A stretch of DNA of 43,593 nucleotides from Leptolyngbyaceae cyanobacterium M33_DOE_097 (GTDB lineage Bacteria > Cyanobacteriota > Cyanobacteriia > Leptolyngbyales > Leptolyngbyaceae). The first letter of the stretch is position 1. Every line of letters begins with the position of its first letter. Below, one piece after another: positions 25,447 to 28,461 of this stretch. The DNA lies in contig DVDV01000309.1 of the NCBI GenBank assembly GCA_015296075.1, positions 1 to 43,593 of the forward strand, written 5' to 3'. The notes beneath the pieces are model-generated. The model was not told where the DNA came from and did not search any database. It worked only from the letters and a program-made list of their open reading frames with translations. The position numbers were made by a program, and so were the translations under genes.

Positions 25447-25824
25447 TTAGTCGTCATACCGCATGAGCTTGCGATAGAAATTTTGTGAGAAATCAGGCAG
25501 CTTTGTGCGCTTGAAATTGAAGATAACTTCAATCAAAAAATCAATAAACTCGAAATTTGCCATCATCAGCTCATAGCTGAGATCGGCATTGCCGTCAAAT
25601 TGTAAGCGGCAGCGAGTAATTTCTGAAGGCAGCGTTGAGACGTTCCACGTAGCAATAAAGGGAATGCTTGCACCCCCCTCAATTTTGCGTTGCCCCTCTA
25701 AAACTCCCTTTTGATATAGGCTAATAGCAAAGGGAAGCAATTGCTTTTTGGCTGCTTGTGGGTAGTAGGGCATGTAGACTCCAACCTGTTGGTTGGGAGC
25801 GGGTTGAAGCTGGTCCAACGACAT
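25447..25824 (-). CDS. ebsA: EbsA-like type IV pilus assembly/biofilm suppression protein
   Basis: A 125-residue soluble protein that I match to the cyanobacterial EbsA family. In Synechococcus elongatus EbsA interacts with the pilus motor proteins PilB and PilC and is needed for type IV pilus assembly and biofilm suppression. Family-typical stretches are VGVYMPYYPQA, LPFAISLYQKGVLEG, TWNVSTLPSEITRCRLQFDG and FPDFSQNFYRKLMRYDD-like ending. ATG 25824 gives the usual length; the longer frame to 25932 adds an unconserved extension. The match is from memory of the family, so confidence is moderate. No pil genes lie in the window. Confidence 0.65.
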   Translation of the reverse strand: MSLDQLQPAPNQQVGVYMPYYPQAAKKQLLPFAISLYQKGVLEGQRKIEGGASIPFIATWNVSTLPSEITRCRLQFDGNADLSYELMMANFEFIDFLIEVIFNFKRTKLPDFSQNFYRKLMRYDD

Positions 25825-26075
25825 AACCAATGGTCCTAATTCCGAGTTAATAATTGCATCAGCGACTAAGGAGACACAGTCAATATACTGGCAGATGTTG
25901 CTTTGTTTAGCATTCCCCAAAATAAGAATCAACCGAGCATCGATTCATCTATTTTGCTCTATCCATAGAAAGCACTACCCAACTGCGATTTGAAAATCTC
26001 GCCCTTATCTTGCTTGTCTTGATATACATCAAGATTTATTGTTAATTCATCCGAATAATTACTGCGTGTTACTTT

Positions 26076-27059
26076 ATGGCACCCCTGGTTGCAAATTATT
26101 ACTTAACCTACCGCTGCAATGCCCGGTGTCACTTTTGTGATATCTGGGCTTTGGAACCCAAAAAGGAGGCGGATTTTGCAACGATTCGCCAGAATCTTCA
26201 AGACTTGCGCCGCTTAGGAGTCAAGTATGTTGACTTCACGGGTGGTGAACCTCTACTGCGCCAAGATGTTCCTGAAATTTTTGCCGAAGCAAAGCGCCAG
26301 GGGTTCGTGACGAGTATGACGACCAACACGATTCTTTACCCAAAGCGTGCGAAAGAAATGCAAGGGTTGGTCGATTTTCTCAATTTTTCGCTCGACGGAC
26401 CAGATGCGGAAACGCATAATCAATCACGCGGCGTCAAAATCTTTGAAACGCTGGTTGAGTCGGTCCGTATTGCGCATGAATTAGGTGAGTTTCCTGTCTT
26501 AAACCACACGGTGACAGCTCAAAACTATGAGCGCATTGGAGAGGTGGCTGAGTTTGCCTACGAAGTAGGCGCACGCGTTTGGCTTAATCCCGCTTTTACG
26601 GCTCATAGCAACTACAACTCAAAGAAAAATCCGACTCCGGCGTTGGTGACGGCGATCGAAGAGATGGCCCGACGATACAACAACCTTGGTTACAATAAAG
26701 CTGCCCTCGAATTCATCAAGGCGGGTGGAAACGACATTAACAATCCGCGTTGTAAAGCCGTTGACGCGGTAATTGCGATTTCGCCCCACGATGAACTCTT
26801 GCTGCCCTGCTATCACTTTGCCCAATCGGCTCCTGCAATTAATGGGCGGCTTTATGAGCTTTACAAAGAGTCGGAGGAAGTTGATTCTTACCGCCGCTCT
26901 CAGGGAAAACTGGCTGTATGTGATGGTTGCACTGTCTGGTGCTACCTGATTCCCAGTTTCTTTATGGGTTTTGACAAATACTGGTTTCTAAATCAAGTGA
27001 CTTATGCCGGCGAATTCCTGGCGCGAAAGCGATTCCTTCAACGAGCTAGAACCGCTTAG
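26076..27059 (+). CDS. Radical SAM protein with C-terminal SPASM-like cysteines
   Basis: A 327-residue radical S-adenosylmethionine enzyme. The iron-sulfur cluster motif is C14-X3-C18-X2-C21 (RCNARCHFC), with the SAM-binding GGEP at 56-59. The C-terminal region adds C226, C245, C282, C285 and C289 (CDGCTVWC), a twitch/SPASM-like arrangement suggesting an auxiliary cluster. No start-proximal Shine-Dalgarno is seen. The last 56 bp overlap the glycosyltransferase at 27004, implying translational coupling. Reaction unknown. Radical SAM enzymes in such settings catalyse epimerisation, dehydrogenation or C-C bond formation. It is not closely like HpnH. Confidence 0.85.
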   Translation: MAPLVANYYLTYRCNARCHFCDIWALEPKKEADFATIRQNLQDLRRLGVKYVDFTGGEPLLRQDVPEIFAEAKRQGFVTSMTTNTILYPKRAKEMQGLVDFLNFSLDGPDAETHNQSRGVKIFETLVESVRIAHELGEFPVLNHTVTAQNYERIGEVAEFAYEVGARVWLNPAFTAHSNYNSKKNPTPALVTAIEEMARRYNNLGYNKAALEFIKAGGNDINNPRCKAVDAVIAISPHDELLLPCYHFAQSAPAINGRLYELYKESEEVDSYRRSQGKLAVCDGCTVWCYLIPSFFMGFDKYWFLNQVTYAGEFLARKRFLQRARTA

Positions 27060-28461
27060 TTCTTTACTGGCGGATATTTCTCAATTTACAGAAGCAGACG
27101 AAGAGACAACTCCAGTCCCTCCTCAGGATCGGCGGCGGCGTAAAGCTGCCATTCTGTTGATGGCAATTTGGAGCGGTACGATCGCGCTGCACTTAGTAGC
27201 CTGGGGTTACTGGTTTGTGATTGGGCTGACAACGCTCATGAGCATTCACGCAGTGCGGATCTTGTTGGCGCGTCCGGTGCCGATGCCGCAACCCCTGACT
27301 GATGACGAGTTAGCCGATGCTCCGACGGTTTCGTTGATGGTTGCAGCGAAAAATGAAGAGGCGGTGATTGGTCGGTTGATGAAGTTGCTTTGTGAGCTTG
27401 ACTATCCCCGCGATCGCTATGAAGTGTGGGCGATTGACGATAACAGCGATGACAACACTCCAGCGGTGTTAGCCAAACTGGCAGGTCAATACTCTAATCT
27501 GCGGGTTGTGCGGCGATCGCCCAATGCCGGAGGCGGCAAGTCAGGGGCACTCAACCAAGTGCTGCCACTGACAAAGGGTGAGTTGATTGCAGTCTTTGAT
27601 GCTGATGCTCAGGTTCCGGCTGACCTCTTGCGGCGGGTTGTGCCACTCTTCGATCGCGACTCTTTGGGTGCAGTGCAAGTGCGTAAAGCCATTTCAAATG
27701 TCTCGCGCAATGGCTGGATCCAGGGCCAAGTTGTAGAGATGGCGTTTGACACCTATATCCAACAGCAACGGATTGCGCTTGGCGGTATTGGTGAGCTGCG
27801 CGGTAATGGGCAGTTTGTCCGCCGAGAAGCTCTGGAGGACTGTGGCGGTTGGAACGAAGAAACGATCACCGACGATTTAGACTTGTCAATTCGCTTGCAT
27901 CTGCATAATTGGGATGTTGAAGTGACAACCGTGCCTGCTGTGCGAGAAGAAGGGGTGACACGGGCGATCGCGCTTTGGCACCAGCGAAACCGTTGGGCGG
28001 AAGGCGGTTATCAACGTTACCTCGACTATTGGCAACCCATTTTGCGAAACCGCATGGGCACCCGTAAAACGTTTGATCTCGTGCTGTTTTGGATTACGCA
28101 GTACATGCTGCCTTCTGCGGCAGTGCCGGATGCGTTGATGGCAGTGTTACGACATCAGCCAATGGTGTGGTCGCCGGTCGGGGGGCTGACGGTGCAACTG
28201 TCGCTCTTGGGCATGTTCTTTGGCTTACGCCGGATCCGTAAGCAAGAGCGAACTCTGCAAGCGGTGGAGCATCCTTCCCGAATGTCGGCTCAAAAACTGT
28301 TCAGAACGCTTCTGCAAGTTGTGTTTGGCACGCTTTACATGCTGCACTGGTTGCCTGTAATTGCCAGCACTGCGGCGCGAATCTCGGTTCGTCCGAAGCG
28401 GCTGAAGTGGGTTAAAACCGCGCATCATGGCAGCGATGTGCAACTGGATGTGACTGGTTAA
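27004..28461 (+). CDS. mgdA: Beta-monoglucosyldiacylglycerol synthase-like GT2 (MgdA)
   Basis: A 485-residue membrane glycosyltransferase. MgdA transfers glucose from UDP-glucose to diacylglycerol, the first step of galactolipid synthesis for thylakoids in cyanobacteria. The N-terminus is polar, followed by two helices (about 48-85). The GT-A catalytic core has AAKNEEAVIG (114-123), AIDDNSDDN, the metal-binding DAD (199-201), TDDLD (289-293) and the QRNRW motif (327-331). Further helices lie at about 360-380, 395-410 and 435-450. The GTIALHL...ARP region and length fit MgdA as I remember it, and a cellulose-synthase-like GT2 remains possible. It overlaps the radical SAM gene and ends 2 bp from the convergent dehydrogenase stop. 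Confidence 0.7.
   Translation: MPANSWRESDSFNELEPLSSLLADISQFTEADEETTPVPPQDRRRRKAAILLMAIWSGTIALHLVAWGYWFVIGLTTLMSIHAVRILLARPVPMPQPLTDDELADAPTVSLMVAAKNEEAVIGRLMKLLCELDYPRDRYEVWAIDDNSDDNTPAVLAKLAGQYSNLRVVRRSPNAGGGKSGALNQVLPLTKGELIAVFDADAQVPADLLRRVVPLFDRDSLGAVQVRKAISNVSRNGWIQGQVVEMAFDTYIQQQRIALGGIGELRGNGQFVRREALEDCGGWNEETITDDLDLSIRLHLHNWDVEVTTVPAVREEGVTRAIALWHQRNRWAEGGYQRYLDYWQPILRNRMGTRKTFDLVLFWITQYMLPSAAVPDALMAVLRHQPMVWSPVGGLTVQLSLLGMFFGLRRIRKQERTLQAVEHPSRMSAQKLFRTLLQVVFGTLYMLHWLPVIASTAARISVRPKRLKWVKTAHHGSDVQLDVTG

Follow-up and report, generated by a model that had tools for sequence, protein, structure and literature searches.

A radical SAM gene overlapping an MgdA-like synthase gene is a candidate alternative glucolipid epimerase gene, 'mgdX', in cyanobacteria

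In the 43,593-nucleotide stretch of DNA from Leptolyngbyaceae cyanobacterium M33_DOE_097 that we analysed (the window), a gene for a 327-residue radical SAM (rSAM) protein (26076 to 27059, plus strand, ATG start) runs into a gene for a 485-residue GT2 glycosyltransferase (27004 to 28461, plus strand, ATG start) that resembles MgdA, the monoglucosyldiacylglycerol (GlcDG) synthase. We observe directly that the two genes share 56 nt (27004 to 27059, plus strand), read in different frames, as a sequence-only reading of the window had stated and as the open reading frame coordinates agree. The divergent neighbour on the other side is ebsA (25447 to 25932, minus strand), a type IV pilus biogenesis gene recognised by NCBIfam NF045587 (9.4e-55) and by synteny, which we do not count among the genes of the glycolipid pathway. 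On the basis of its Radical_SAM match and its complementary distribution with the known epimerase MgdE, we refer to the rSAM gene as a candidate GlcDG 4-epimerase gene, 'mgdX'.

The rSAM protein belongs to the radical SAM superfamily (Pfam Radical_SAM PF04055, E=4.8e-23), and Radical_SAM and Fer4_12 are its only Pfam matches. Its CX3CX2C motif (C14, C18 and C21; 26115 to 26138, plus strand), which is predicted to carry the SAM-binding [4Fe-4S] cluster, is invariant in an alignment of 38 relatives ranging from Leptolyngbya to Gloeobacterales, and so are five cysteines of the C-terminal region (C226, C245, C282, C285 and C289; 26751 to 26942, plus strand). The sequence-only reading had noted five extra cysteines in a SPASM-like layout; the cysteines are indeed there, but their spacing, C-X18-C-X36-C-X2-C-X3-C, differs from the seven-cysteine SPASM motif as quoted in PMC6231123 and appears nearer to that of a one-cluster Twitch domain with one cysteine to spare. 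We therefore infer that this region holds an auxiliary cluster and that the additional cysteine is a candidate hydrogen-atom donor, the ligand roles being assigned by the same reasoning. A structure model of moderate confidence (mean pLDDT 75.7, pTM 0.80, with the cluster-motif loop and residues 293-297 poorly modelled) has a predicted fold that matches the Twitch/SPASM-like enzymes, its relatives by fold including PqqE, SuiB, BlsE and MoaA (Z about 20-22), BtrN (Z 16.6) and SpeY. Such a fold does not by itself fix the reaction; Twitch/SPASM enzymes dehydrogenate, decarboxylate, cyclise and epimerise. We also considered a simple amphipathic C-terminal membrane helix, for which the helical moment is low, and membrane binding is thus unsupported by that measure.

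The proposal that the GT2 protein is MgdA holds up on indirect evidence. The protein matches Glyco_tranf_2_3 (E=4.5e-28) as well as PF00535 and PF13641, and contains the motifs DAD, TDDLD and QRNRW. In MgdA the GT2 domain stands between two membrane helices on its N-terminal side and three on its C-terminal side (PMC3916417), and hydropathy peaks of the window protein at 48-66, 71-89, 388-408 and 436-454 compare with published helices at 46-66, 68-88, 389-409 and 435-455; at the threshold used there is no peak for the helix at 361-381, so that four of the five helices are matched. An ortholog is nearly universal in Cyanobacteriia, and in several genomes the MgdA-like gene adjoins a gene of the FA_hydroxylase-SDR (MgdE) type, in parallel with the adjacency, judged by locus number, of sll1377 and sll1376. 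We regard the identification of this GT2 protein as MgdA as supported, not proven.

The pairing of the two genes is not peculiar to this genome. We scanned the genomes of about 85,000 prokaryote species, with a reach limited to close relatives of the rSAM protein and short of distant homologs, and found 64 loci (69-86% identity), all of them cyanobacterial, in hosts that include Leptolyngbya, Thermosynechococcus, Acaryochloris, Richelia and two Gloeobacterales-type genomes. All 60 linked loci that could be scored have an overlap, 47-116 nt long, with the ATG of the GT2 gene at rSAM position +928, which rules out a chance overlap or a one-genome pairing; conservation of the pair across cyanobacteria, at about 60 loci, means that one way in which the sequence-only reading could have failed, a pairing unique to this genome, does not apply. 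That ATG is partly dictated by the codon for an invariant rSAM residue, Tyr310, yet the codon is TAT every time and never TAC, and GT2 N-termini similar to that of the window protein persist in genomes that have no rSAM gene, and the start is therefore probably real. The rSAM protein is the more conserved of the two (about 68-85% identity to the window protein, against 43-68% for GT2). Only in Gloeobacterales are the genes unlinked. There (L057:4096-10192 and L058:4103-10188) the rSAM gene is flanked on one side by a nucleotidyltransferase-like gene and on the other by ldpA-, AAA protein- and clpR-like genes, and is downstream of a sugar-nucleotide SDR gene, all of these names having been given by eye.

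The known GlcDG epimerase, MgdE (Sll1376) of Synechocystis, was identified through expression in E. coli, and Synechocystis PCC 6803 without sll1376 has GlcDG instead of galactolipids. MgdE is a member of the bifunctional sterol desaturase/SDR family (PMC4742570). No mgdE gene was found in G. violaceus, T. elongatus or A. marina, which nevertheless contain GlcDG, and labelling showed that GlcDG is converted to monogalactosyldiacylglycerol (MGDG) in G. violaceus (PMC4742570); another epimerase, the hypothetical 'mgdX', may therefore exist (PMC4742570), and the expectation in the literature was that it would be another SDR family member. We find that members of all three groups without mgdE (Gloeobacterales, Thermosynechococcus and Acaryochloris) carry the rSAM gene. 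To call MgdE we relied on architecture (NF005653), neighbourhood and distribution and not on comparison with the Sll1376 sequence itself, using a profile of four proteins (63-66% identical to the first), one of which scores 715 bits with NF005653 against a cut-off of 336. This profile was searched over the same 386 genomes as the rSAM protein, 189 of them Cyanobacteriia, and found MgdE in 174 of the 189. MgdE is missing from all 12 Cyanobacteriia with an intact rSAM gene and present in 174 of the 177 without one (Fisher p=1.5e-16, a value that ignores relatedness and is inflated because the genomes are related). One MgdE-containing genome (G024) was not counted as having an intact rSAM gene, its match being a 47% fragment with stops. 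MgdE was also absent from 63 of 63 further rSAM-containing host genomes, searched with positive controls alongside, some of which repeat the first 12 (the GT2 proteins of G283 and of the host of L007, for instance, are identical), and from five more that are relatives of Gloeobacter; it was found in none of about 80 rSAM-containing genome records. Around Gloeobacter, none of the seven genomes with the rSAM gene has MgdE, whereas 12 of 13 relatives without the rSAM gene do, the thirteenth (G458) having no MgdA-like gene either. The source genome of the window, where a check for MgdE had been suggested, gave no match at E<=1e-25 and conforms to the mutual exclusion seen in the genomes tested. 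Absence of MgdE as an artefact of the search can be set aside, since the same alignment detects it in the 174 Cyanobacteriia and positive genomes were searched alongside negative ones; the weak profile matches in rSAM-containing genomes are generic SDR stretches with E no better than 8.7e-7.

Three genomes have appeared to lack both genes. In one (G091) mgdA lies 171 bp from a contig end, where congeners have mgdE, and another (G149) is in 1110 contigs with mgdA broken. The third (G046), a single contig of 3.8 Mb, has mgdA but no rSAM gene and no MgdE; synteny searches for the block that stands beside mgdE in the congener G227 gave only repeats or nothing, and loss, an assembly gap or a third epimerase are possible explanations. 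We note several further features of the distribution of MgdE. In two genomes MgdE lies near a second, paralogous MgdA-like GT2 gene whose product is 43-47% identical to the window GT2 (L149:1606-4968 in G054, and G191:C44:22688-25394), the ortholog of the window GT2 being located apart from both, and it may be that MgdE was passed on together with a glycosyltransferase of its own. Matches to the SDR half only occur in families f23, f26 and f29 (G164, G187, G276, G280 and G340), besides the small-genome family f19, and several lineages seem able to do without the hydroxylase-like domain. Two loci of Richelia intracellularis (L033 and L054), one from a 3.2 Mb genome, have an intact rSAM gene; in family f7, MgdE is present in nearly all of the members sampled.

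The two states also alternate among related genomes. Both occur within five families (f1, f3, f4, f7 and f18) and within one genus (g3). On a tree of GT2 proteins the label changes 11 times, and five independent pairs on well-supported branches show opposite directions for rSAM and MgdE (sign test p=0.06), a result that is supporting evidence only, because the tree has long branches and was built from a linked gene. In about 16 MgdE-containing genomes we find decayed remnants of the rSAM gene upstream of mgdA, on the same strand and collinear with it, counted outside the overlap region; 10 are strong (E<1e-8; G024, G062, G161, G272, G334, G019, G040, G185, G370 and G119) and the others weaker, and a reversed rSAM query used as a control for relics gave no matches. 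The gene order ebsA, rSAM, mgdA is conserved across families, also where the rSAM gene is missing or decayed: G024 has ebsA, an rSAM relic and mgdA, and in G290 and G207 ebsA stands beside mgdA with the rSAM gene gone. Relics, and ebsA next to mgdA with nothing between, are as predicted if MgdE displaced the rSAM gene, which then decayed.

Taken together, the genomes provide strong evidence that the rSAM protein functionally replaces MgdE, and we put at roughly 85% the probability that it is an alternative GlcDG epimerase that inverts C4 of GlcDG to give MGDG. The suggestion that it shares a function with the glucolipid synthase and is linked to the epimerisation of glucolipid to galactolipid is supported by the pairing and by the exclusion of MgdE, and of the three substrates that had been offered, a glycolipid, a sugar nucleotide or the synthase itself, the data favour the first. 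MgdA would make GlcDG from UDP-glucose and diacylglycerol, and the rSAM enzyme would then invert C4 of the lipid-bound glucose to yield MGDG. The cluster at C14, C18 and C21 would cleave SAM, the resulting 5'-deoxyadenosyl radical would abstract the C4 hydrogen, and the sugar radical would receive a hydrogen on its opposite face from a cysteine of the protein, either C289, a guess made from spacing, or another of the C-terminal cysteines, the remainder of which would hold the Twitch-type auxiliary cluster. This abstraction and return of hydrogen is proposed by analogy with the rSAM epimerases NeoN and EpeE, both of which are considered to quench the substrate radical with a cysteine, Cys223 in EpeE (PMC8326336). 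That the rSAM protein catalyses the whole epimerisation, like its substrate, reaction and hydrogen donor, we infer from the comparative evidence. Counting against an epimerase are the separation of the rSAM gene from mgdA in Gloeobacterales, the lack of both genes in G046, a fold that would suit several reactions and the expectation in the literature of an SDR protein.

It is conceivable, if unlikely, that the rSAM enzyme performs half of the reaction, a BtrN-like oxidation of GlcDG C4 to a ketone, and that a second enzyme, a reductase, puts the hydroxyl back on the opposite face. BtrN and SpeY, both Twitch-type dehydrogenases, are among the fold matches, and in BtrN-type enzymes the auxiliary cluster is believed to accept an electron (PMC9012708); however, no conserved reductase gene stands beside the rSAM gene in the neighbourhoods compared, and the fifth invariant cysteine of the C-terminal region is in keeping with a hydrogen donor within the protein. 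We consider it decidedly improbable that the protein acts on another feature of the glycolipid or on MgdA itself, with the true epimerase elsewhere, since the overlap with mgdA, which by itself would suit any MgdA-linked function, would be accounted for but the exclusion of MgdE and the decay of the rSAM gene in MgdE-containing genomes would not. There is very little likelihood that the exclusion is a phylogenetic accident and that compact gene packing produced the overlap by chance: relatedness does inflate the Fisher p-value and leaves about five independent pairs (p=0.06), but both states recur in the five families and the one genus, relics lie in MgdE-containing relatives, and the overlap is retained in every linked locus scored. 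Epimerisation of sugar nucleotides is common chemistry. We can give almost no credence to the idea that the rSAM protein works at that level and MgdA adds galactose directly, given the GlcDG of T. elongatus, A. marina and G. violaceus and its conversion to MGDG in the last (PMC4742570), and given that nucleotide epimerisation is normally carried out by GalE (PMC8227023).

If the rSAM protein is the GlcDG epimerase, its gene was probably displaced several times by the unrelated MgdE and then decayed in place. We see about even odds that it was the original galactolipid epimerase of the cyanobacterial common ancestor, with MgdE a later and repeatedly acquired replacement that left rSAM pseudogenes behind, a history suggested by the relics and by the finding that each Gloeobacter-like genome examined has the rSAM gene. 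Galactolipids make up the bulk of the lipid in photosynthetic membranes, and Thermosynechococcus is the source of many photosystem II structures. How MGDG is made without MgdE in Gloeobacter, Thermosynechococcus and Acaryochloris has been an open question, for which the hypothetical 'mgdX' was proposed in 2016 (PMC4742570) and for which one strong candidate gene can now be named. A literature search of openly accessible journal papers returned no published link of a radical SAM protein with MGDG, mgdX or GlcDG, though an earlier description may exist in subscription papers or preprints; two radical SAM proteins mentioned in a study of the Spirulina proteome have no connection with the GlcDG to MGDG step. 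An epimerase of this kind would bring radical SAM chemistry into the making of bulk membrane lipids and change the picture of how galactolipid synthesis evolved in cyanobacteria, and, were it ancestral, radical chemistry would have built the first galactolipid photosynthetic membranes.

Lastly, we compare the rSAM protein with the systems closest to it. Its best NCBIfam match, over residues 2-297, is TIGR03961 (PTO1314 family radical SAM protein), a hypothetical equivalog to which it does not belong, scoring 120.5 bits against a cut-off of 306. Its best PDB sequence match (7vob; E=5.9e-20 by profile) is BlsE, a cytosylglucuronate decarboxylase that carries out radical chemistry on a glucoside ring (PMC3715490). 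The BlsE fold aligns over rSAM residues 1-314 (Z 20.9) while sequence similarity covers only 13-173, and BlsE removes a carboxyl group; the rSAM protein scores 66 bits against the 400-bit NCBIfam cut-off for that family. MgdE catalyses the same proposed step, GlcDG to MGDG after MgdA, and its gene likewise adjoins an MgdA-like gene in several genomes, but it consists of FA_hydroxylase-like and SDR Rossmann domains with no radical SAM domain and is unrelated to the rSAM protein, which has none of the MgdE domains and would therefore be a non-homologous replacement and not a member of the MgdE family. The proposed chemistry resembles that of NeoN of neomycin biosynthesis, an rSAM epimerase that inverts one sugar carbon of an already assembled glycoside, the hydrogen coming from a cysteine, Cys249 (PMC10991966); NeoN acts on an antibiotic and at a C5-type position, and the rSAM protein is likened to it by proposed function, not by sequence.
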